DNA of 64,000 nt, taken from positions 186,001 through 250,000 of the forward strand of contig OZ017753.1 of the NCBI GenBank assembly GCA_963969365.1, in the 5' to 3' direction. Position 1 is the first letter of the stretch. Each line of letters opens with the position of its first letter. A model generated the notes under the pieces. The model made no database searches, had not been told where the DNA came from, and worked only from the letters and a program-made list of their open reading frames with translations. This document shows, piece after piece, positions 6,377-61,400 of the stretch. The translations under genes were made by a program, and so were the position numbers. Source of the DNA: Asterochloris sp. CNOR1 (lineage: Eukaryota; Chlorophyta; Trebouxiophyceae; Trebouxiales; Trebouxiaceae).

Positions 6377-9300
6377 ATGGGCAAGCACAAGAACACCAAG
6401 CAGCAGACCACAGGTGAGACAGGGCTGCCTGCAACAACATGCCAGCATGCTGGCCACGGCAAGGCTTTGCGGTAATGCTCAAGCAGATGCAGGTTGCCAG
6501 GCCACATGCGCACAGCTGTACAGGCAGCCGCGCGATTTGGTGTGCCCTGGCCAGCTGGCCCTCCTATCCTGCAGCTGCCTGCCCCAGCTCGCAGGCCTGC
6601 CTGCTGGCACTGCCAGCTGTGTCTCCATGTCAGCCATGCAAAGTCATGTTGCGATCCTGACGCTGCCGTGTCCCATGTAGAGCTGCCCATGAGCGACCCC
6701 AGGGACCCTGTTGAGCCACCCCCTCAGGGACTTCGCGCAGCTTTTGGTGCAGAAAATGGCCCCTATCCACCGCCACCTTCGGCCCCTCCCGCCTCCACAT
6801 CTGATACCATTGCGGCCGGCGGCCCTGCACCCAACAGGCCCACCTTTGTGGTGCGCAAGCCTTGCTGCCGGCCAGTGGCTTGTCACATTTCATATATCTG
6901 CTGTCCGTGAGCTGCTTGGAGATTGCAAAGTATGCCTTCCATGCTGCAATGCATGCTGTGTGACAATCTGCTCAGCAGGGGTAGAGACATCAAGCTCCAT
7001 TGACATGTGCACAAGCAGCAGCCACACAACACTGCGCAGCTGCTGCCCGCACTCGCCCCATCAGCGAGCTGGCCCAGACGAGCTGCAGATGCAAATTGAC
7101 AGCCTGGCAGCTACCAAGGCAGCTTCCATGTTCGCCTCCTGGCAATGGCTCTCGCTGCCTCACTGCAGGAGCCCAGGGATACCCTCCCGTCGCTGAAGCA
7201 GGTTGTGACGCCGGCAGACACCAAGCTCACCATCAGGCATGGCCTGTTCGGCAACAAGGTGCCCATTCAGGTGTGCAGGCTACCACAAACCCTAGCACCT
7301 GCCTCCTTGACCCTCAAGGCTGCAAGTGACTCAGCTCAGATTTGCGCAACCCCTTCCCCTTCTCGCTCTCTTCAGCACCGGTGTGCCTCACACAACTGCC
7401 TGCGGGGCCCTCAACAGACAACTGCTGCTGCCCATCATGCTGGCTGCTCAGGCTCTGATAAGGATGCTGAAGGCGAGCAGGTACTCTGCTAGATAAACAC
7501 CTGCTTGCAGGGGCAGCAATGTGGGTGCATCACACCAGTAGTCTGAACAAGACGCACTATGCCACATGCTCTGCAGAGCACCAAGGCCATGATCTGAATG
7601 CTGGGGCTTGTCATTCTGCAGCTGCTGAGCTGTTACCAAACCCCTGTCAACCGCAGCAGTTTGATGATTGACATCAGCAGACGCCGTGCTGAAACAATCA
7701 TGCCCCTGTTTCTGCTTGCAGACCATGGGTGTCTGCAGAGCATGCAGCACATCTGCCTCAATGAGCTGGAGAGGGAGAGCCTGGAGGGCTCATGGTGGTT
7801 TTGTGTTTCAACTCTCTGCAGGAGGCTGTGAGCCTTGGGTGGAGAACGTGTGTTGAGGCTTCTGCCCTGCTGCCGCTGCAGGAGATGGACAAGAAGGTCA
7901 ACCCTTGGACCAAGAGGACCGAATGGAACCCTGTGGGGATAGCCATTTACACCTGGTTTGTAGCGGCCTATGTGTTCTACTTCTACGTCCGCATCGCCCA
8001 CACCCTGACAGGCACCATTCTAGGGTGAGGCTGGGGGATTGAGAGGCAGACTTGCATGAGGTCTGGCGTTGCACATTGGTCAGCACCTTGGTGGGGCAGG
8101 GACGCGGCTGAAGGCTGCACCTTCTGCAAAGACAGGAGAGGGCCCCAGGTGGCAGCATGCGCATGCATTGGGAAAGGTGTAGTATCAACCTCATTGAAAA
8201 GCACCGGAGTGCAGGGGTAGCCAGCTTCTGCTGTCAGCATGCATACCGAACAGCAGGCAGGCTGAGGGTAGAGGAGGGAGACTCTGACTGCCGTCAGCAT
8301 GCATTTCATGCAGCACTGTGGTGGAGCGGGCTGTGGTGAAGGCTGCACCTGCTGCACGGGCATGCTTCGCTGGTCATCGTGGGGCTGGAAGCCAGCAAAC
8401 TGAAAGTGCTGCTCACATCTGTGTTAAGGGACACCAGTGCAGGCAGAGCACAGGAGGCAGCCTGATGCTGCTGCTTTTGGACGCTTGGTCTGCTGATAGA
8501 CGCTGTGTGGTGCGACCACTGATGTGCAGGGGCTTGCTCACTCTGTTAGTAAAGTGCACGTTGTGGGCGGAGCTGACTGGTGCGGTGTGCTGCCTGTTGA
8601 GCCTGCCCCAGATGAAGCATTCCCCCAACTTGCCCAGTGCTAGGCTGCTTCTGTGTACAGAGCCAGAGGTCTCACTGCATTGCCTTTCAAATGCAGATAC
8701 GGAATCACCGTCCTGTGTTTTGAGTTCTTTGCCAGCAGTGCCATGTTCATCCATGGCATGACCCTTCTGCGACGAACAGTGCCACGGGATCCCCTGACCC
8801 CGCCAGCCCCACAATCCTATCACATCAGGTCAGCAACTTTATGCATACCCTCACAGCAAGAAGTTGCAAATGCAACCCAGCTGGTGTGACTGCTCAGCTG
8901 GTGCATCCTGGCATTACGTCTGGCTGCTGCACCTGCCAGCCACTCACTACAGGCAGTTTCTGGCCACAGCAGCAGAACCCTCCCTCTGCACGTGTTGCCA
9001 TGCTGTGAGGACACAGGCCAGGGTTCAACTGCCTGGTCAAACCCCAGCCTGCCTTACCTGCATAGCCAAAGCTACCGCTGCGCACAGCAAGGCTGACAAG
9101 GTGCAGCTCTCCCTGCCTCAGGGTCCTGATTCCCTGCTACACGGAGGCACTGGACATCGTCAAGCAGGTGGTGCTGGCTGCCGCCAACGCGCCCCTGCCA
9201 GACAAGTGCCGCAGGACTGTCTACCTGCTGGACGATGGCAAAGATGCTCAGAAGGCAGACTTTGTGGCCAAGCAGGGTGCGCTGCCGGCGCTGCACTTCC

Positions 9301-12300
9301 GTACTGTCCTTTTGTTGACATGTAGTGTGCAGCCTGCAGTTCATCAGGCCGGCTGGCAGCAGCGGTGTGTGAAGCTGAGGGCCCCTATCTTGTTTTGGCT
9401 GGAGCACAGGAGGCATGCAGGCACAGAGCTGTCGGTGATGTTGGTCACATGCATGGACCTCGACTGCACATCATGCCTAAGCATGGGCATCGGCCTGCCA
9501 CAGCTCCTTGCAGGCTCTCTTGTGTGCGCAATATTCAGCTGCTGCACTGCCTGCTGCAGAGCGTCAGGATATCGTGTATGTGGGCAATCGCATTCGCCAG
9601 AAGGGGGAGTCCAACGGGAAGGCATGCAACCTGAACAACACCTTACGCAACCTGTACCCCCCAGGCCAGCCCGTGGACCCCAATGAGGTGGGCTGGAGAG
9701 TTTTCAAAGTAGTCAAGCTGTCAGACTTGGCAGTTGCCTTCCATGAGCTGCGCTGGGGCACACAGGATTGAGTTTTTTTATCAAGCAGCCCATGGACTAT
9801 GATGGGCGCTGCAAAACCATTTTCAGCAGGCAAGAAGTCTGGCTGCCTGGGTAGCCAAGGATGCCAGGACGTTGTGTCTGGAAGGAAATGAACCATTTGG
9901 TTAGTGTTGAGCAGTTGGCACCCCCCCCCCGCAACCCGCTGACTCAGCTCCATGACCATTGTTCTGCCACGGTCACAGGGTCTTGCAGGACAGGCAGCTT
10001 GCCGAAGCGTACTGGGTGCAGGTCTCTTCAGAACTCGTCGTCCTCCACTATCTGCAGCTGCTGTGCATCACGGATATGCACTGCTGCCATGCCCAGCAGA
10101 CCTGCTGCATGCAAGTGAAGGCGCCCGTCCTGACCATCAGCATGCCTCCCTGCAGCTGCTGTGCATCTTTGATGCGGACATGCTGCCCAAGCCTGAGTTC
10201 TTCATGAAGATGCTGGCCGAACTGAATGACCCACGCGTGGCCTTGGTGCTCAGCCCCCAGTCCTTTCACAACTACAACCCCAAGTCCGACATCTTCAACC
10301 ACTCCAACTTCACCTACTGGGAGTACATCCTGCCAGGTCAGCCAGTGCTGTCGCGCTAAGCAAATCTGCCACTTGCTGGGCGTTGGCGAGCTGCGGCACA
10401 CAGCAAGGCTCATGCTGGCAGAATTGATCATCTGCTCCTGCATGGTCAGTGATTGGGTTTGCTGCACAAGGACAGGCCTACTTGGTGTGCTGCAGTGCTG
10501 CTCAGCTGGGGCCACATATCATCAAGTCACTCACCTGTTTTGTGGTAGCTAATGTGGCTACGTGCTGGCCGTGAAACCCTCCAGGGCAGTCCCGCATTGC
10601 CTGGCTGACAATGCCACTGTGCTACAGCATCAACATTGGGGACCATCCCGCCAGGCCAGCCATCAGCGTGCCGCCCAACTTGACTGCCAGCTGGGTGTGA
10701 CCCTGGCAGGTGTCACTCACATGTTGTTTGCCCCACTTGTTTGCACCAGAATGAAAATGTAGGACCAGCTGGATGATCCTGCCAGGTGTCGACCGCATGA
10801 ACTTTGCACATGATGTGCTGAAGATGGGCCCTGTGCTCTGCAGGGCTGGATGGCTGGGACATGATCAGCTGCACGGGCACCAACTTCATCATCCGTGCCG
10901 ACGCGGGGCAGATGGTGGACTGGTTCCCCACCTATACCCTGGGGGAGGACATGGCCCTAGCACTGGCCCTGGAGAAGGCTGGCTACTGCGTGAGTCTGTT
11001 GCTGCCTGCAGCATGCAACGCTTTGCAGCTTTGCAGCACCACGGTGTTTGGGGGAATGCATGCTCTGGGCTTGAGGCGGGCAATAACCAAGCGTGTTGGC
11101 ATGCGATGATCTGCCCTGCAGTAAATTGGCGTCAGCGTGACTCAGTCCCGCCTACGGCTGCACTGTAGTTGATTTGTCAAGGCTTAGGGGCGGCAGATGT
11201 AACGGAGCCTCGGCCGTCAGCAGAGCAGGAGAGCCATGGAGCTTGCTGCCTGACTGAATCACTGCTCTGACTGCTGCAGGGAGCGTATGTGAAGGAGTAC
11301 CTGGCTGTCGGGGAGGCCCCAGAGTCTGTGCGCAACTGTTTCATGCAGAAGTCACGGTGAGGGCCAGGCTGCTGCTCGCTGGCTGGGCCTGCTGCTCTTG
11401 AGGCCTCCAGGTGGTGTCTGCATGCTGAGGTCGAATGCTAGGGCACAAAATGGCTGTCCTCATGCACATCTTGCAGAGTTCTGAAGTGCTGCCTGTGCAT
11501 GCTCTCTTAAGATGCGCCACTGCCAAAGGGACAATGGCGCCTCTTCATGCTTCACCCTTGCCCATAATTACATGTTGTGTGCCTACTGGGCCTACAACCA
11601 CAGCTTGCGCAAGGCTTGGGCTGGTCAGGCGTGATGCTGCCGCCGAGGCAGCGCAGCCCCATGGCGCTGCTGCCCTGTTGCAGTCCCTCACCACCTTTCT
11701 GCTCCTGCTGCTGCAGGTGGTGCAAGGGTGGCATGCAGGTCTGGTTCAGCAAGCACAACCCCTGGCTCAACAAGAACCTGAAGCTGTCCCACAAGATCCT
11801 GTGGAGCAATGGGCCCTGGTCCTACATGACAGGTCTGCCCTGTGCATGACCTAGTGCTGAGACCTTCCCATCTTGTTGTTGGGGCAAAAGGCTCCAAAGT
11901 ATCCTTTGGGGCAACTCACCATAGTCACACGCGATACATATAAGTTTCACTGCCAGCAGGCATCATAGCCATTTTTCATAGCTGTTTCTGAAGCGGCCAT
12001 GCAGCACTTTGGCCAACCATGCCCTGCAGCAATGCAGCTGCTGCTGCAGGCACATCAGTGGGGCCTGGAGGTGCATGTGCATTCCTTCAGGGATTGGCTT
12101 CACTCCACGGCCCCCAGAACCTGCACCATCTTGCAGGAACACCATTGACCATCCTCATCTGACTTTCAAATCACAGCCTCTGCAGCGTTACCACCTTCTC
12201 CATGTCCTGGGGCGGTCACACCCCACTCTTGACTGAGTGGCCACATGTGCTGCCTGGCCATGTGCTGCCTGGCCATGTGCTGCCTGGCCATGCTCATCCT

Positions 12301-15300
12301 GTCTGCCATCGTGACTCTACAACTCATGTCATCAGTATTCCTAAAGCCCTGTAACCCTAACAGATAATGTACTCATGTTGCTGCAGGCACCTTTGCTACC
12401 CCCATCTTCCTGGCCATCCCCGTCATCGGCATCTGGTCCGGCTACTTCCCCATCGAGTTCAACATCTGGTTTGCCATCGCCTTCACTGTGTACATGCTCA
12501 CCATGTACGGCATGGTCTACTACTGCCGGTCCTTTAGCCACCTCAAGTGAGTCCAGATACGCTTTGTGGGGTTCAATGCAGTGACACCTGCTCATGGTCC
12601 TGCGCTATACCTATCTTGCTACAGCATGGAGGGCTTGCATTCTGGCACACGTGCTGTCCTTGCCTCCGCATCTGTGTATTTTCAAGATGAGCGCAGGCTC
12701 CATGGGCCTCAATCTATCTGCACACAGTCTGCAGTCTGCAGCTTGCTGCAGCACAGGCCAGGCTGCGTACTACTTGTTTAGCTGCTTCGTGAGTGAATTT
12801 TCGCAATGTTGCGTGGTCTTCATTGTGGCTGGCCACACCCCCTTGTCCTCTCTTGCGGATATGAACCCCAGCCACCCTGCAAAATCATCTGTTAGGCCAC
12901 TGTGGCTGGCCATGTTTTTGGTGTCCACTCTTGCAGATGCGGCCCCAGCCCTGAGCCTGCTGCACATCCCAACCCTGCAGGTTCATCTGGTTCTCTACTG
13001 TGGCTGGCTACATCTTCTGGTTCACCTACATGAAGGCGACAGTAAACACCTTCATTGGCGGGATCATGGGCAAGAACATCAAGTTCAAGACCACTGAGAA
13101 GAGTTCGCTGGCTCAGGTCAGCCTGCACCTACAATGCCAATTTGCTTGACAATTGAACAAGTTGCAAGTTGCTTCCAGCATCAAGCAGGGGGTGACATGG
13201 GCTGTGAGCTGAGGCCTTGAGCACGTCTCCCTGGTTAAGCAGCCTACGGCTTGCTGAAAGCAACTTCTGCTGCCTGAGCTGGTATGCAGGTGAGCAGAGG
13301 CTTTTGGGGTCGAGTTGGTCTCTGCTCTCTGGGGGAAAGTGTTAACAGTCCTCAGCGGGGCAGGCATTTTAGACCTTGCTGACAACATGTGTGCCAGCAT
13401 TCCATCAAGGCAGATCAGGCCAAAGCTCCTGTGCAGCACTGTGCAAGGGCTTCATGGGTTCCTGCAGGGCATCCAGGACCAGGCCAACAAGGCTAAGCGC
13501 AAGGTGGAGGACAGTGCCTTTGGCCAGTTCTGGCTCAAGATTCAGGTAGGCTGCAATGCTCGAGACCTTGGCAGCCGCCACAGCAGACCTGCTGCAGCTG
13601 GGCTTTTGTACACAGACCAGTAGCTGCGGCTGCAAGCGGCCTCATGTTCCAGCAGACTCTTGCAATTGGGGTCCCATGTTAAGTCATATGCGCCTATGTG
13701 CTGGCCTTGGTACAGAGGCGGCCTGCAGCTCGGCCTTGAACCTGACACTGTTTTATTTAGCTGTGGCTGCACAATCCTGTCAAATGTGTGAGCGTGCCGG
13801 CTGCAGGACATCTGGATCCCTGCCATTGTGCTGATGGCCAACCTGTCGGCAGTGGTGGTGGGCATTGTGAGGCTGACCTATGAGATCAACACGCTCCAGG
13901 TTGGTCTTGGGCACAAGTCTGGCTTCTTGCTGTTGGGAGGTGTGATGAGCGGCACACCATCTGGGGTTTGGCCACACCAAATTGCCAGTGTGTGTGCAGC
14001 TGCCTAGGCTGGCTGCCCTGATTGTTCTTGTCTTGTGAGCTGCCATCTTGATGGCTGGAGCGTACTTGTATCTTGAGGGCTTTGACGGCGCCTGCCTGGC
14101 AGACAGAGCATGAAGGATAACCTGTGTTGCCAGAAGTGCTCTGCACACTGTCTGTGCATATCAGTCATAGAGGTTGACCTGTATTGCAAGCAATGTGAGA
14201 AGTGTCCCTGTGTGGGTCTCCATACAGCCATGTGCCCCCGGCAATCTGAATGTGCAAACCTTGTCATATGACCCTGCCTGCAGGTTGAGTCTGCAGGTTG
14301 AGACACTGTCCAGTGCATCGTCATGCCTTCATGATCGCTCGAGCTGACCAGAGGGAGTGTCCTGAGCCACTTGCCCCGCTGAGCTGGGGCAGTGACCTCA
14401 AGTGCATGTCTGCTGCCCGCAGGTCAAGACCCTGTCCCTGTTTGTCTCCATCGGCTGGTGCGTGTACAATAGCATCCCTCCCTACCTGCTGCTGCACTAC
14501 TGGGCCTGGGGGCACAAGGGTCTGCGCTGGACCAGCACCATCGCCTCCCTGGTGTCCACACTGGTGGCCATCTTCATCATCATCATGATCTGGCTGGTGC
14601 TGCCCAACAGCTATGACTTTGGCAAGGTGGGCGACCAGTGGCGTGCTCCTGTGTGCCAGCTTGGGATTTGCTGGATCTGGGGGACATATGAGGCAGCAAG
14701 TAGTTGTATTGCCAGCCGTTCACTATCCCGGCAAATTGGACTTGCCTCCAGTCACGCCTGCTACTCTGAAAACTTTGCTGAGCAGTGAGCACCCAATCTG
14801 ATCCCCCATGTCTCTTGCTTTAGGGTCAGCAAGCCAATCCTTTGCTTGCTCCTTTCAAGTCTGGCTCTTGACATACATTTTGCGCTGAGAGAGTCTTCCA
14901 TTTGTTTGGAAGGGCCCATCCAGGGACAGTCTTGTTGCTGAGGTGCAGGCTCTTGGCAGCCAACCTGAGTGCATCAGCTTGTCCCACTCCTGTTGTGCAC
15001 CCAGCTGAGGGCAGTCTTGTATTCCCTACAGGTGCTGGCCACCCAGTTCAAGTTCTATGAGGCCCAGCGCTCAGGGCACCTCACCAACAACGACATTCCC
15101 TGGAGGGGGGACTCTGGCCTGGGAGACGTGTATGGCACCACTGCCCTGCATGGCGGCTACTACACAGATGGAGGTGGGTGGGCAGCTGGTGCAAGCCTTG
15201 CATGTGAGATCTGCTGCAGGGACGCATGCGCGCTGCCTGCACCAGGCTGCCCGAGAGAGGCAGGGTGCAGGGTAGCATGTCTGCGGCCTGCACAAAGCTG

Positions 15301-18300
15301 GATACAGCAGGATTGCCCACCATGTCTCTGTCCTTGCATGCATTGTCATCACCTGGGCAGTAGTGCTGTGACTGGGTTGTCCCTTGACTTATCACCCTGC
15401 AAGGGGAAGTTGTCTCCTTGTGAGGGCTGTTCCCCAGCTCATGCCTCAGGCATGACTGCTGCTGTGTTGCGCTGCAGGCTTTGTCAAGTATGGGATGCCC
15501 CTTGCCTTCACCACCACCATGCTGTCCTGGAGCCTGCTGGAGTTTCCCAAGGTAAGCACCACAAGCAAAAGGAGTTGGTGTCCTGTTCACCAAACCTTTG
15601 CAAGCGTCCAAAAGCAAGCACTTGCTGTACACGCAACGGTTCAAGTTGAGTGTACATCACCTGGTCTTGACCAGACACAGGCATCCCTGTTGTGGTGTAT
15701 TTGGTGTGACTTTCTCCAGTCTGAACAAGCAAGCCCTCCTGCAGTGGGCATGCACCACCTTTGTATCAGTAAGCAGCGTGCTTGATACATGGGCCATAGC
15801 CCCACACCAAAACCAACTACTTTGTGGCCCAAGGTCTTCACAAGCAGCACGTGGTGCCAAAGCACAGGGCAACATTATGGCTGCCTGCGCAGGTGTGCCA
15901 GGATTACCTTGAAGAGCATGTGGGCATGCCACAGCAACTGTCGTGGTGCAGTGTGCTCCTTCATCCCCGCAACCTCCTGCCCAATCCGTTCCCTGTGCTT
16001 TTGTAGCCTGCAGAGATTTGCCCAGCCAGTGCAGACAGCTGGCGTACTGCAGGGTGATACCTGGCCTATCTCACCAATGAAAGTTGCCCAGCAGGGCCAA
16101 TCCAAGGCTGTGCAGATCACTTATGCAGAGGCCGCTGACTGCAGCAACTCCCCAAGGTTTCTGTTCTGCAGGTCCACTCCTAGGCAGGCCCTTCCTGAGC
16201 CTCCATGTTGCAAATGCATCCCACATCCAAACCCTAAGCCCTGCCCATGCTGTGTGCAGGGATACTCCAAGGCCGGGCAGACTGCTGATGCAGAGGCTGC
16301 CATTCGGTGGGCCACTGACTACCTGCTGGAGTGCAACGTGGCCGACGGGACCTTTGTGGGCCAGGTCGGCACCTACGCCAGCGACGCTGCCTACTGGGGG
16401 AAGCCCGAAGTCATGACCGAAAACAGGTGGGGCTTGCTGTAATACTAGCAGTGTGGCAGTGCAGGGGCTGCCAACTAGGGCATGCACTTGGTTACGACCC
16501 AGACCAGCTGGGGCTTGTTGTGAGACTGGCAGCGTGGCGGTGGTTGCTGCAAACTGAAGCAACCATGTGGTCATTACAAACATCAATTGGGTGATGGATT
16601 GAGTTGCGCGATGGGTGTCTTGTAGCATGACAGATGACTGTGCGTTGGGGGAAGCCCAACTTCACTGGCCCTGCTTGCTATGCTCCACAGCAGCTTCCAT
16701 GGCTCATCTCTACGACAGTGCTTGTACAGTGCCTCAAACCATGGGACCTGGTTGTAGTTTTCAGTCCTGTGTTTCAAGGTGCCTCAAGGCCTGGACACCT
16801 GTGTCATTGCACTGTGCTGTGCTGTACCACGCTGCACTCCACCGTGTTCCAACCCGATCTGCAGGACGGCCTTTGTCATAGACGCCAGCAACCCTGGGGC
16901 AGACCTGCTGGGCTCCACTAGCGCAGCCCTGGCCGCCGCCTCTTCTGTCTTCCAGTACTCAGACCCCACCTACTCGGCCACCCTGCTTGCAGCCTCTCAG
17001 ACCCTGTTCAGGTGGGGCACAGCGGCATCCACAGCAAGCAGTTGGGACACCATCTGCTCCTGTCTGCTTCAGCCACGCTGCAGCAGTCTTGCAGGATCCT
17101 CTTCATGTTGCAGTTGGTGCACTGCAGCAACTCAATAAGCTGCCTGCTCTGCCACTATGCTGTGGGTCTTTGCAGACATGTGTCTGTGGGGTGCTGGCCC
17201 ACAGACATGCACTGTAGCACATACTGTGGCACACACCTGCAGCATCAGCCTGTCAGCCACTCTGCTGGCAGCTCCAGAGGATCTTGTATGTGGGGGACAC
17301 AGCCGTACTGCAGGCAGCTGAAGCCCCCATGTCTGGGGGCCTGTCATAGTTGGCACCCCTCTCTGATGCTGGTATTCTGGCTCAGTCTAACAGGTTCTGT
17401 GCCGCCATAAAAAGCTTACACGGCCCCAGCCTTAAGTTGCTCGCAAGGACCCACACAAAGCTCACAGCACTGCTCCTGCTCTGCTTGCAACTTACAACCC
17501 GCACAGCCCTGCTCTGCGCAGGCCCTGCCGACAGGGGTGTCCTTGCACACAAGCATCCATACTGAGCAGGTCGTCTTCACCGCGCACCCTGAGCCTCACC
17601 TTACACATCACCCTGCAGGCAGGGGCCTCTCCACAAAGTCAAGTTTGTACCACCCCTGCAGGCTCTCCTACAAATATCTCCATTTTCCATATCCTGCCCA
17701 TGCCGTGCAGGCAAGGTCGTCTTTACTCTGGCCTGTACAGCAACTCCATCCCAGACGCTGCCACCCTGTACCCCAGCACCAGCTACCTGGACGACATGGC
17801 CCTGGCATGCATGTGGCTGTGGCAGCGCACAGGCGTCGCCACCCTCCTGTCAGAAGCCCAGACCTACCTGCAGCAGCATGAGGCTCAGGAGACCACGGTG
17901 GGTGCTGCACTGAGGAGGGCATATGATGCTGTCTGCGGTACAGCCCGCTCTCAGCCACACCTTGCTGAAGCAGCTCTACAGGCATCCAAGAGCAATGATG
18001 GCTTCTCCTGGGGCATTCAAACCCCTGTTGCTGCAAAGGCGGTCACAGTACGAGACAAGTGGCAACACAAAATCAGCAAATTTATCACAGGGCCTCAGTC
18101 TTTGATGCAGGGCGGCTATGGCTTCTCCTGGGACAATCAGGCCCCTGCTGCACAGCTGCTGCTGGCTAATGCCACCAGTTTCCAGGACGTGAACGGCGTC
18201 ACAGGCGCAGCGTGAGTGCCTCACCCTGCCTGCCCTGGGCTGCTCCGCCACGTCACTGGTGCTGGCTGTGCCCACAGCCATGACTGTGCCTGCCACAGCA

Positions 18301-20523
18301 CATCAGCCGCCACCACAGCCTCTGACTTGAGACGCCAGACTTTGAGGAGGCAATGTGCCATGCCTCAATCAGTGCTACGCACTGCAGCTGCCTACAGGAT
18401 ACATCAGACCGGCCATGCTTGACACAGCCCTGTCCCATGTCTGCCAGAGCATCAGCCACAACAGCTCCATGCTCCACCACCCAGCTGGGCGCGCATGACA
18501 TGTCCATGCACCTGCCCGCAGATGGGGCTCCCAGACTGGAACATACCTTCTGAATTGGGTTGATGGGAGTAACGGCGTGACCTACAACGTCAACCTGCTG
18601 GCCTATGCGGGTGACGGTGCTGGTGAGGCTTCCTACTTGTTCATTCCAGTCCAGCCGCCCTGTTGGCCTCCCTTATCAGCACCCTTGCAATCTGTGTGCA
18701 TAAGCACATCTGTAGTTCTGCTGGCCTGGCCAATCAGTGCCCCTGCGCATCATATAAGATGGTAGTAGATGTAAGCTTGTTTTGAGTTGCGTGATCAGGG
18801 TGTGATCAAGCTGCACAGCTGGCAGACTTCCCTTTCAGGTTTCTGTGCGTCACAATTCTCGTAACCCACTGAGCTGCTGCATGACACAGCTTCACCAGCC
18901 GCTGTTCTCATATTGCAGGTTCATCGCACAGCCAGTCACTCCACACCAGCTTTGCATGCTTGTGCTGCTTACCTGCTGGGTGATGCCATCTCTGCCTGCA
19001 GGGGTAGCCCTTTGAACATGACCTCCTGCTGCTGACCAAGATGAGCTGCTGTAGCTACCCAGCTCACGTGCTGAATCTAACGCTGCTGTACTGCAACTGC
19101 AGGCTGCTGAGCAAACACTGCAGGCAGCTGCACACACATCCAGTGAAGCACATTTGTGCTGTCTCAGCTTTACCGGCAGGCACTGCTGCAGGCAGGGTCA
19201 ACAGACATGCTTATCCCTTGCGCAAGCTCAAATTATAGACAACCAGAACTTGAGCCTGGGCAGCCACTCACTGACTGTGTATCTGCTGCAGGCGCCTATG
19301 GCGTGACTGCCAACGTTGGTTTCCTGGCCATGGCCTACTGGCGCTACAGCGGAAGGGAGGGCAAGTTGCGCTGCTGGGCCCTCTCGCAGGTACATATAGA
19401 TACTTGTCTATAGCTGCTGTTACATATTGTGCATGCTTGTTGCTCGGTATGATCCCTGCACTGCTGGGTGCTCTCTTACTGGGCAAAGCCGGATTTGGCT
19501 ATGTTTTGCGCCGCACTCACCAGGTTTTGAGGATGCTGTTCAGAGCTGGGCTCGCATTGGCTCCCGTAGATGCAAGGATGCCTGACACGCCCCGGCCCAA
19601 ATCATGAGCGTGTCCGTCATAATCTGCGTGCAGCACTGGACAGACATTTGGCTTGCCTGAGGCAGCTCAGGTGATTGGTTCCCTAGTCTGTGCAGCTGCC
19701 TGCAGCAGCCTCTCAACAGCCTGCAGCTATAGTGAAGCAGCGTCTGCTCTGGCACGCAACATGCAACCTCCAGCAGTGCAGTGCAGAGCCCCCCCTCTGC
19801 CTGCGGGGCACAGCTAAGATCAGAGCTGTGCAGTCAGCCGTGCCCTACCTCAGCACAGGCCAGCAGCCATGTGCAGCAGATGTGAGGGGCGCGCCGGGAA
19901 ATTCTGTGCAAGGCCCCTTCCTGGCACTGCACGCCCCTGCCTCTGCAGGCATGGCAGCTGTTGGGTGACAGCCGTTTTGCAACAAGAGCACGCGCCAAGA
20001 ACGGCACTGGCACTCGACCATGCATGCCCCCTGCGTCTGCAGGCACGCCACCTGCAGAGGGCAACAGCTGCTGCGCCCCTGGGCTGATTTTGGACATGCT
20101 GTGCATGCTGCAGCCCAGAAGCCCAAGACGATGCATGTGTCGGTGCAGGCACGCCATCTCTTGGGCGACAGTGGGCGCAGCTATGTGGTGGGCTATGGTC
20201 ACAATCCCCCCACCCATGTGACCCACAAGGCTGCATCCTGCCCTGGCACAGCCATCGACACCCCCTGCGACGCCTCGATCGCCTACAACGTCTCCACTCC
20301 CAACCCCCACGTACTCACAGGCGCCCTTGTATCAGGGCCTGTGACCGCCAATGGCCTCTATGCAGACCAGAGAACCTCTCTGGATAACAGGGTGTCAATC
20401 GAGTACAACGCAGGCTTTGCAGGCCTGCTGGCAGCCCTGGAGCAATGGCCTAGGAGCATGACAAACTGCCTTCAAGGCAGGGGCCTCTTCAACGAAAAGG
20501 AAAGCAAGAAGCGCCCAGTCTGA
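6377..20523 (+). CDS. Cellulose-synthase-like GT2 fused to a GH9 endoglucanase-like module
   Basis: About 26 exons, all in phase from the third onward, encode roughly 1,170 residues. Start ATG is at 6377 (MGKHKNTKQQ), followed by a Pro-rich segment (6681-6850), a tentative short exon 7065-7118 with a GC donor, then 7169-7270. The GT2 part runs 7882-14626. It has two N-terminal membrane spans (7882-8024, 8697-8828) and the nucleotide-sugar motif LLDDGKDAQK (9122-9276). Next come FDADMLPKP, the DxD motif (10156-10336), SCTGTNF and GED in place of TED (10844-10989), and QKSRW, the QxxRW motif, split across 11280-11356 and 11717-11832. Further spans follow at 12387-12546, 12981-13116, 13807-13899 and 14423-14626. 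All hallmarks of a processive UDP-sugar polymerase at the plasma membrane are therefore present; cellulose is the likely product by family. Exon 15032-15173 continues directly into GH9 with no start or stop between. The stop TGA is at 20521-20523. Whether the fusion is one mature protein needs transcript data. Confidence 0.85.
12242..12291. repeat. 15-bp minisatellite, about 3 copies
   Basis: Perfect tandem copies of the 15-base unit catgtgctgcctggc lie in the intron between the GT2 exons ending 11832 and beginning 12387. Confidence 0.8.
12800..13010 (+). repeat. Ghost copies of the 5' edge of GT2 exon 12981-13116
   Basis: The phrase tgtggctggc(c/t)aca/atg, followed by a gcgga/gcaga...ccccagcc stretch, occurs near 12825 and 12900. 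The real exon has tgtggctggctacatc near 13001. The spacing suggests tandem duplication of the exon's start and upstream intron. Confidence 0.5.
16100..16145 (+). repeat. Ghost copy of the GH9 exon 16260-16426
   Basis: The intronic stretch caaggctgtgcagatcac...tatgcagaggccgctg matches caaggccgggcagactgc...gatgcagaggctgcca at 16269-16305 in the real exon, with a few substitutions. A second ghost, of the exon's 3' end (gggggaagccc), lies at about 16645-16660 in the following intron. Confidence 0.6.
18000..18060 (+). repeat. Ghost copy of the GH9 exon 18111-18211
   Basis: Bases 18000-18035 read gatggcttctcctggggcattcaaacccctgttgc in outline, a diverged copy of the real exon start at 18115-18150 (GFSWDNQAPAA). 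The ghost is preceded by its own sequence and lies about 115 bases upstream, so it is a tandem duplicate kept inside the intron. The frame is open through it, which could tempt a gene finder to include it. Confidence 0.6.
19900..20080 (+). repeat. Ghost acceptors of the last GH9 exon
   Basis: The border gtgcag|gcacgccatctcttgggcgacag of the real exon at 20149 has two diverged copies upstream: ctgcaggcatggcagctgttgggtgacag near 19945-19972 and ctgcaggcacgccacctgcag near 20038-20060. Each keeps a usable cag acceptor. Confidence 0.55.
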
Positions 20524-20844: not shown

Positions 20845-34523
<13,679 letters not shown>

Positions 34524-58400: not shown

Positions 58401-61400
58401 TTGGCTGGTGATGAAGCAGCTGACCAGCTGCCTCCACAGGCGGCCCAGATGCAGGTGCCCATCACCTCGCTGCTACCTCTGGTGGAGGCGCAGCCGCACG
58501 AAAGCCAGGTGGGTGACCCTTTGGACATGCTTTTTGCTTTTTCTTCATTGCTCCGCAGCCTTGTGACATGCACTTCTTCAAGGTCCCTGCAACTGTGAGG
58601 AATGTGCAGAGCGCAGGCCCCTGAGGCGGCTGACACTGTATCTGCTGCTGGAAAGGCAAGGTCAACTACAGGCAGTCATGTGCACGCTGTGCGACCTGCT
58701 GACAAAAAGGCCCTGAGCATGGCATGTCAAGGGTGTGAGCTCTATTTGTGCTGCAGTAGGGGTCAGCACAAGCTTCAGGCAATAACATGCATGTTGTGCA
58801 GCCTGCTGGCAACAAGGCCTTGACGCACTCGCATGACAGTCGAGTGACAGCCTCTCTGGCACGTGTGTATGTGCGACAGGTTGCTCCCAGCCTGAAGCAG
58901 GAGGTTGTGGAGCTGCTGGACGTCCTTCTTGACCTGCACCAGGCCTTCCTGCCAGAGGGCGATGCTCAGCACACTGTCAACATTGCACAGCTGAGCGGCA
59001 CCCTCATCCACCTGTCGCGCCGGAGGCCAGTGCAGCAGATGGCTGCCCTGCTGACAACGCTGCTGCGCTCGTATGGGGCCACCCTCAGCAGCACAGATAG
59101 GGCGCTGGGGCGGTTGCTGAGGAACGTGAACAGCCTGCTGGTCCAGGCGCAGCCAGAGTGGGCTGCTCAACTGGAGCAGGTGCGGCAGCAGGCGCTGGAA
59201 AGGCAGCAGCAGGTGGGTTTAGTAAACTTAGCTGGTTGGAGGGCTCGTGAACAGTCTGCTGCTGTGGGGGGCTGGGCTGCTTCCGTGCAGCAGCGGGCGC
59301 TGGCAATGCAGCACAAAGTGGGCTTCAGCAGCTAGGTGCGATGCAGGGTTGCGGGGCGTATTGGTAGAGCAGAACACACAAAGCAAGTCTGGGCGATTCT
59401 TGACCGTGTGCTGTGTCCTTTTGTGCTGACGATTTTCACGCTCGCCCTCAATCACTCATTCTGACGTGCTGGCATGCTGTGCAGGAGCTGGCGAGGCAGC
59501 GGCTTGCGCATGGCAGGTCGCCATTTGGTCACACAGAACAGGTGAGTTCCTGTGCAGTTTGAGGCAGCCTGCAAGCAGCACAGAACCAGAGGTAGCCTTG
59601 ATTCAACCCTGGGCTGCCACTTGTTGTGTTGAAAGAGGCCAGATACCTGCGAGCTGGGCATCTGCACTCCTGGATGGGCTGGTAGCTGCAGTGTAAATGA
59701 CACGGAACAAGGCTGCAGGGGACCAATTGGGGTGCTGTCCCCGTCGAGACGTGTCGTCCTGCAGTGCTGTGTCATCCTCAGTGTGTGGATGCCAAAGCAG
59801 CCATGTATGACTGCAGGCTGGGGAGATGGGAGATGCTGAGGAGGGAGCTGATGAGGGCACAGAGGCTGAAGAGGATGAGGCTGCTGCAATAGCAGTGGAC
59901 GGGGTGGAGGGCAGCGTGCTGGTTCAGCTGATGCAGGGGCCTCTGGCTACAGCCGGGTGAGTGGACCTCTGAGCTGGGATTCGAACAAAACCACTGCAGT
60001 GTGATGTTTCAGCGAGGTGATGTATCAGCACTAGCACTGAGCAGCTGCTGCTGTCTGCTGAGTAGCAGCCTGACATCTGGGTGCCGCAACGCCTTTGCAT
60101 TGCACGAGGCTGGCGAGCAGGTGCGGCGAACAGAGTTTGGTCATGCACATGCAGGTTCTGCTGGGGCTCTGCGGCTCAGGTTGCACATAAGGCAGGCCCC
60201 TCTTCAGAAGCCCAGGGTCCTGCTGGAGCCACCTCAATGTGAGTCCTGCAGGCCCTTTTCAGAAAGAGCTGGCTGCAATTTCTGGCAAGATACAGTGTCT
60301 GAAGGTTGTCGTCTGCATGCTTGGACCTCACGTCAGCCAGCCCCCTCAATTGCCAGATGGGTGCCACACAGCTGTTGCTTTGGTATGAGCAACGATGACT
60401 GGCTCCACTCCTGCATGCTACCAGGTACGACAGTCTGCCTCTGTGCAGGTTGCAACAGGATCTCAACATTCAAACATTCATGTCCACTGCCTGTGCTTCG
60501 TCTGCAGGCCAGCAAGCCAGCACTGCTGCCCGTCCTGCACGCCGCTGCAATTGCTCCAACTCCTGATGTTGGGCCCTTCGCATGCCCTTTCAATACCTCG
60601 GTCGATGGCAAGCATTACTGGGACAGCCCGCACTGGCTGCTGGCTGCAACAGGAGGTTCACTATCCAGATTCACGGGCTGCAGGTTGTTCTGCAGGGTTT
60701 CAAGCCAGCAGTGGTGCCTGCCCTGCAGGCTGTGGCAGGAGGTGGACCCTCGGCGGGTGGCCCTCACCTGCGTGCACTTCCCCGAGCAGCGCACCCTGGC
60801 AGCAGATGAGGTCCTCGACCCTGCCCCAGCCAGCTCAGAGGAGCTGGCTCACTGGCTTGCTGAGCAGCTGAGCCTGCTGGACACTGGCACCCCTGTGGGA
60901 CGCTCAGAGGAAACGCAGGGAGCACCTGCAGTCGCTGCTGCTGCTCCAGGATTCCATCCCCAGGGCGTGGACCCTGCCTGGCTGCTGATCAGCGCCGTCC
61001 AGGTGCGTCACCTGCCGCTCTGCTGTAGTCGACGTGGGACCTCCGGACTGATGCGTCGCTCTGTCTGTATGACCGAGTGCTGGACATGTTGCTACTCCAC
61101 GTGGCTGCTGCCAGTCCTTGTGGCTCTGCTGGCTCCTGCAGTGCTACCTGCATCTGCAGCTGTCGCTTACCGGCGGTCTCCTTGGCGGCCAGGATGCCGC
61201 AAGCTTCTGTGGGGGACTCTTAGCACAAGGGGTAAAAGGGTTCTGTTTCTCAGCGGCAGCTGCAACATCAATGGAGCAGTCTACAGCTCTTGGCCTGGCT
61301 CACTCACCTTGCTGCCTCCTGTAGCATGCCAACTGCAGTTGAGGCATTGCTGCTTGCTGCACTTATACAATACGTTGTTACATGCTTTAGGCCTGTAGAG

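Follow-up and report, generated by a model that had tools for sequence, protein, structure and literature searches.

A green algal fusion of a cellulose-synthase-like GT2 with a GH9 domain in which the catalytic residues are replaced

Introduction

It is an open question whether the cellulase partner of cellulose synthases is kept for cutting or for physical handling of the chain. KORRIGAN, a separate, N-terminally anchored and catalytic membrane GH9, is thought to hydrolyse nascent glucan, and in the tunicate cellulose synthase the hydrolase domain belongs to GH6. The locus described here lies in a 64,000-nucleotide stretch of Asterochloris sp. CNOR1 DNA (contig OZ017753.1, positions 186,001 to 250,000; hereafter the window), where a cellulose-synthase-like GT2 is followed by a GH9 glycoside hydrolase domain. 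Two questions arise from this arrangement, namely whether the two halves are truly one gene and, if they are, whether the hydrolase half can still cut.

Gene structure and domain architecture

The gene model of the window was made with an ab initio gene finder under strict penalties, hand curation and spliced profile alignment, and in the last of these the row of the window gene is aligned to itself and lends no support. In the curated model, the GT2-GH9 fusion gene (6377..20523, plus strand, as are all its parts given below) has 25 exons and 24 introns, all of them GT-AG, and encodes a protein of 1149 aa. The coding sequence of 3450 nt runs from the ATG at 6377 to the TGA at 20521-20523 without internal stops, and the roughly 23 phase-keeping exon joins counted in the earlier note come to 24 joins in one open frame.

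Exons 1-3 (6377-6413, 6681-6850 and 7169-7270) encode an N-terminal tail that is without paralog support, the paralog comparison having given no match upstream of 7870; exon 2 has the weakest acceptor of the model (score 2.5) and its boundaries are uncertain. Among the few later sites with low splice scores, which agree with the paralog proteins, are the exon 5 acceptor (2.9) and the exon 9 donor (-0.2). Exons 4-5 (7882..8828) encode two N-terminal membrane helices (aa ~121-139 and ~149-167, from a hydropathy scan), exons 6-11 (9122..11832) the GT2 catalytic domain, recognised by Pfam and by motifs and predicted to be cytosolic, and exons 12-14 (12387..13545) two further membrane helices, the interface region and a gating-loop-like FKTTEK. 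The last three helices (aa ~589-607, ~624-642 and ~660-678) and the start of GH9, YDFGK, are encoded by exons 15-16 (13807..14626), and the remainder of the GH9 domain, seen in Pfam and in an alignment with PDB 1ks8, by exons 17-25 (15032..20523; exons 17-21 at 15032-15173, 15478-15551, 16260-16426, 16865-17011 and 17711-17897, exons 22-25 at 18111-18211, 18522-18622, 19292-19389 and 20149-20523).

Both domains that the earlier note had read from the letters were recovered when the predicted protein was searched against Pfam. Five families match at E<=0.1, four of them GT2-type profiles between aa 194 and 491 (among them PF13641 at aa 194-427 and PF13632 at aa 293-491), and PF00759 (GH9) matches at aa 684-1119 over profile positions 1-444 with E=1.1e-100, which makes the domain full length by profile and a member of the GH9 fold. 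Elsewhere in the window, the longest listed ORF (60001-61398, plus strand, 465 aa) has no Pfam match at E<=0.001, and on the minus strand, convergent with the fusion gene, a P-type cation ATPase has its C-terminus at 20848-21219 (PF00689, E=1.4e-17).

The GT2-GH9 junction

As read from the DNA, the GT2 and GH9 of the window are joined in one gene and are not an accident of gene modelling. The earlier note had the last membrane span end in an exon at 14423-14626 and GH9 begin in the next, at 15032-15173. Both exons are found exactly there, each in phase 0 in the curated model, and the helix does end in the first of them, but GH9 does not begin in the second: YDFGK, directly after the last helix and thus still inside exon 16, pairs with YDYKQ, the first GH9 residues of 1ks8. 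In the paralogs C1 and C8b, a single uninterrupted exon of the DNA spans the final membrane helix together with the start of GH9, and the order of GT2 then GH9 recurs at 7 loci of the genome, the window included, in the spliced profile alignment. The single-exon junctions, the shared exon 16 and the seven loci bear out the claim that GT2 and GH9 belong to one gene.

The junction intron itself (14627..15031, 405 nt, GT-AG, phase 0) ranks 12th of the 24 by length, the median intron measuring 419.5 nt. A separate start for GH9, which the earlier note had held to be missing, was sought before and within exon 17 and is indeed missing, since the frame of exon 17 meets a stop at 14966 and contains no ATG after that stop upstream of exon 17, nor any within exon 17, which would leave a separate GH9 gene with no start codon. 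An ab initio comparison of fused with split models favoured the fusion in all seven loci, by 18.8 to 37.0 nats, and is given little weight because the ab initio model over-merges at C13, where it joined the GT2 to following, unrelated-looking sequence. The over-merging lends something to the reading that a GT2 gene and the GH9 gene following it were joined in error, which we nevertheless reject as highly improbable in view of the single-exon junctions of C1 and C8b, the encoding of the first GH9 residues by a GT2 exon, the lack of an in-frame ATG before or in exon 17 and the recurrence of the same order at seven loci.

The synthase half and its membrane topology

The window GT2 carries DDG, DAD (10171-10179), GED at the TED position and QKSRW at that of QxxRW, corresponding to what we take to be the motif names of the processive BcsA/CesA-type GT2 (DDG, DxD, TED and QxxRW), and FKTTEK is assigned by us to the gating-loop motif FxVTxK. 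With these motifs and a profile match to BcsA structures it belongs to the processive BcsA/CesA-type GT2, with G replacing T in TED. A six-row GT2 profile found its best matches among solved structures in the bacterial cellulose synthase chains 7lby (1.2e-39) and 5ej1 (1e-38), presumably from E. coli and R. sphaeroides, respectively. Against TIGR03030 the window GT2 gives an E of 2.4e-40 and 138.3 bits, under the curated cut-off of 699.1 bits, and it does not fall within the bacterial BcsA equivalog. The protein nevertheless resembles bacterial BcsA/TIGR03030 in its GT2 motifs, its gating-like motif, its helix pattern and its best solved-structure match; it differs in that PilZ is not in its Pfam listing, GH9 standing in PilZ's place, and in having one more C-terminal helix than BcsA. 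A scan of prokaryotes with the GT2 alignment reached two remote loci at 25-26% identity, and a viral scan gave no match. The land-plant CesA/Csl type was also considered and was rejected because PF03552 finds nothing, either among the five Pfam families of the window protein (E<=0.1) or exon by exon across the genome (E<=0.001).

Two helices ahead of the GT domain are marked by the hydropathy scan in all seven fusions, as are three that lie between the gating-like motif and GH9; of the middle pair, this plain scan marks both members in five of the seven. The last three helices of the window protein have hydropathy means of 2.24, 1.35 and 2.82. Marks at aa 196-214, inside the window GT domain, and in GH9 stretches of the six other fusions were discounted. 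The C terminus of plant CesA is outside, and the helix count would likewise place the GH9 domain outside the membrane. The distribution of sequons (37 seen against 30.5 expected in the GH9 parts, 15 against 16.4 in the GT2 parts) does not clearly favour an outside GH9.

The hydrolase half

The closest solved GH9 by sequence, PDB 1ks8, which we take to be the termite NtEgl endoglucanase, aligns end to end with the window GH9 (E=5.6e-87). The residues D54, D57 and E412 of 1ks8, which we assume to be the GH9 catalytic carboxylates, are replaced by T, G and R: TDGG stands for DAGD at 15164..15479, split by an intron (D54->T, D57->G), and NRVS for NEVA, with Arg at the site of the catalytic Glu, 20389..20391, both positions being hand-counted. 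With T, G and R at these three sites the window protein does not carry the residue set of an active GH9 enzyme.

The same holds for all seven fusions. Glu412 is kept in none of the seven fusions (R, G, L, R, T, a gap and R in pairwise alignments) and Asp54 in one, C16; Asp57 is kept in none by the multiple alignment and in two, C8b and C1, by pairwise alignment. All three carboxylates together are found in 0 of 7 fusions and in 0 of the 8 GH9 domains, and the control 3wc3 has all three. H124 and H359 are lost in every fusion, W301 is kept in none, and R305, H360 and R361 are kept in two each. The earlier note had seen in the fusion a hydrolase coupled to synthesis, and these replacements, above all Arg for the catalytic Glu and TDGG for DAGD, make an active coupled cellulase unlikely as far as the sequences go.

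Across the 243 columns common to 1ks8 and 3wc3, mean retention in the fused GH9 domains is 3.42 of 7. At D54, D57, H124, H359, R361 and E412 it falls to 0.50 of 7 (values this low occurred in 137 of 100000 random sets) and at W127, Y206, W253 and N309 it rises to 6.25 of 7 (values this high in 1061 of 100000), figures that are descriptive since the sets were picked after the alignment was seen and the roles given to these residues are assumed. The forward frames of eleven loci contain no intact GGxxD[AGST]GD-like motif, in a scan that had no positive control and is blind to a motif split by an intron, as it is in the window. In the models the GH9 frames are open in all seven fusions, for 462-529 residues past the junction, the paralog models coming from a spliced alignment in which stops carry a penalty and one could have been bypassed.

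The fusion family in the genome

The genome (56.4 Mb in 21 contigs) holds, by spliced profile alignment, eight other loci, six of which are fusions (C16, C1, C4a, C4b, C8b and C14), one a GT2 alone (C6gt) and one a GH9 alone (C6). Two more loci, C12 and C13, were added by a search with the C1 GT2 protein; in their models GT2 is without GH9, and they are absent from the genome's GH9 matches. The ab initio model of C12 ends soon past the last helix, and that of C13 continues into other sequence. GH9 is thus carried by 7 of 10 GT2 genes of the window kind, and 7 of 8 GH9 loci are fused, both locus counts (10 and 8) being lower bounds. C12 and C13, closely related GT2 genes, share DAD and QxxRW, with DDSPKG replacing DDGKD.

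The catalytic GT2 motifs are intact in the window gene, C16, C1, C4a, C14 and C6gt, with GED in the window gene and CED in C16 for TED, and are broken in C4b and C8b as read from the spliced models, so that the family does not consist of synthases throughout. C4b and C8b, with open GT2-GH9 frames, broken GT2 motifs and an incomplete GH9 set, appear to be double pseudo-enzymes.

Relation to known systems

The tunicate cellulose synthase is likewise a synthase fused to a hydrolase-family domain, but the hydrolase family is another one, GH9 here as against GH6, as the earlier note had said, and in the present fusion the catalytic residues are lost. With KORRIGAN, the window protein shares a GH9 near a cellulose synthase and, if its placement is as predicted, outside the membrane; it is not a KORRIGAN, however, as its GH9 is C-terminal to GT2, covalently joined to it and devoid of the catalytic residues.

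The earlier note had known of no described case of such a fusion, and in this it was mistaken. In Coccomyxa subellipsoidea C-169, four of the 9 GH9 proteins are described as fusions of GH9 with a cellulose-synthase-like domain, and the same passage also names C. variabilis and E. huxleyi, as of that time (Blanc et al., 2012; PMC3446292). In that account the synthase part of the algal proteins is highly similar to the tunicate one, and the tunicate hydrolase domain differs from the algal type-9 domain (Blanc et al., 2012). The window protein, with a cellulose-synthase-like GT2 and a GH9 in one chain, is a fusion of this Coccomyxa type when C-169 is compared by its description. In both chlorophytes GH9 sits on a cellulose-synthase-like domain of non-plant type in several copies, and they differ in extent, 4 of 9 GH9 proteins being fused in C-169, as described, and at least 7 of at least 8 GH9 loci here. 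The architecture is therefore already known in green algae, and the interesting feature here is the disarmed GH9. The passage of Blanc et al. (2012; PMC3446292) on the C-169 fusions makes no mention of their catalytic residues, topology or junction; among the matches listed in a literature search there is no statement that the GH9 of such fusions lacks catalytic residues, and the term GH9 is not used in the accessible main text of two later algal surveys (PMC3797821, PMC4023592).

Proposed role of the fused GH9 domain

Our reading of these sequences, to which we give a probability of about one half, is that the window gene encodes a synthase that makes beta-glucan processively and carries, at its chain exit, a GH9 that is extracellular and does not hydrolyse. 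A BcsA/CesA-type GT2 domain in the cytosol would make beta-glucan, and the chain would be pushed out through the synthase's own membrane helices, the seventh of which would pass without a break into a GH9 fold on the outer side, close to where the exit channel opens. This GH9 would not be a working cellulase, its catalytic acid being gone and its base motif rewritten while the fold survives along with some of the cleft, and it would most likely bind, guide or space the emerging chain, or help to arrange neighbouring synthases. We infer that it lies outside and does not hydrolyse, and to judge from its residues it is more likely to hold or guide the new chain than to cut it. The loss of W301 and the low retention of H360 and R361 count against this explanation, as the cleft is only partly kept, and so do the three GT2 genes at which no GH9 was found and the two fusions with broken GT2 motifs. 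The glucan is left unnamed because BcsA-like eukaryotic clades fall close to synthases of cellulose as well as to those of mixed-linkage glucan, as placed in a passage of the Zygnema genome preprint (PMC9915684).

It is somewhat unlikely that GH9 is instead inert, a spacer or the folding remnant of a once-active fusion, kept only because it is hard to drop. Catalytic residues have been lost differently among the paralogs, W301, H124 and H359 are gone from every fusion and C6gt manages without GH9, all of which such a remnant would accommodate; against it, frames of 462-529 residues that remain open in the models of seven genes across a large divergence, and the retention of W127, Y206, W253 and N309, suggest selection on the fold. 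A purely scaffolding role, in which GH9 arranges synthase complexes and makes no contact with the chain, is narrower than the proposed chain handling and overlaps with it, and we regard it as unlikely: C4b and C8b, open and yet without GT2 motifs or the GH9 catalytic set, look as non-catalytic subunits would, but some aromatics of the cleft are retained. Distinctly unlikely is active editing in cis, in which GH9 would hydrolyse the nascent glucan by way of other residues. The full-length domain, with its strong Pfam match, an Asp alignable at the base position in C8b and C1, and Asp54 in C16 can be cited for it, but they are set against a non-Glu at the general acid position in seven of seven fusions, a complete catalytic set in none and the loss of both H124 and H359 from all.

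With chain handling as the preferred role, the family would offer a natural case of a partner fixed covalently beside the channel exit but lacking the cutting residues. This would make the question of cutting or handling directly testable, since what then chiefly remained would be a role other than hydrolysis. Nor should the number of GH9 domains in an algal genome be taken as a measure of cellulase activity.

Origin of the fusion

The seven fused domains stand apart from 1ks8, 3wc3 and C6 in the GH9 tree (100/98). The GT2 tree pairs the window gene with C16 (96/93) and C1 with C14 (99/98) and puts C6gt beside C4a, C1 and C14 (85/90), that is, among fused genes; C4b, C8b and one of the two BcsA rows have long branches in it. 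The seven fused genes as a single GT2 clade are not rejected by the AU test (p=0.152), which thus speaks neither for nor against a later loss of GH9 in C6gt. The simplest reading is a single fusion followed by copying, with loss of GH9 in C6gt as a possible later event. GH9 may be dispensable, since none was found at C6gt, C12 or C13 and C6gt stands among fused genes in the GT2 tree. We would suggest, tentatively and at something short of even odds, that in algae of this lineage an ancestral cellulase was fused at the chain exit and disarmed in every copy to become an extracellular guide or assembly module, the two members that have since lost their synthase motifs being perhaps non-catalytic subunits within these same complexes.

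The GH9 of C6 (G000:C6:2563001-2573500) is the sole GH9 locus found without GT2, and it has kept the catalytic Glu and not DAGD. Upstream of it, in a stretch taken from a rough gene model, there is a match to a Kazal-type inhibitor (PF07648, E=5.2e-06).
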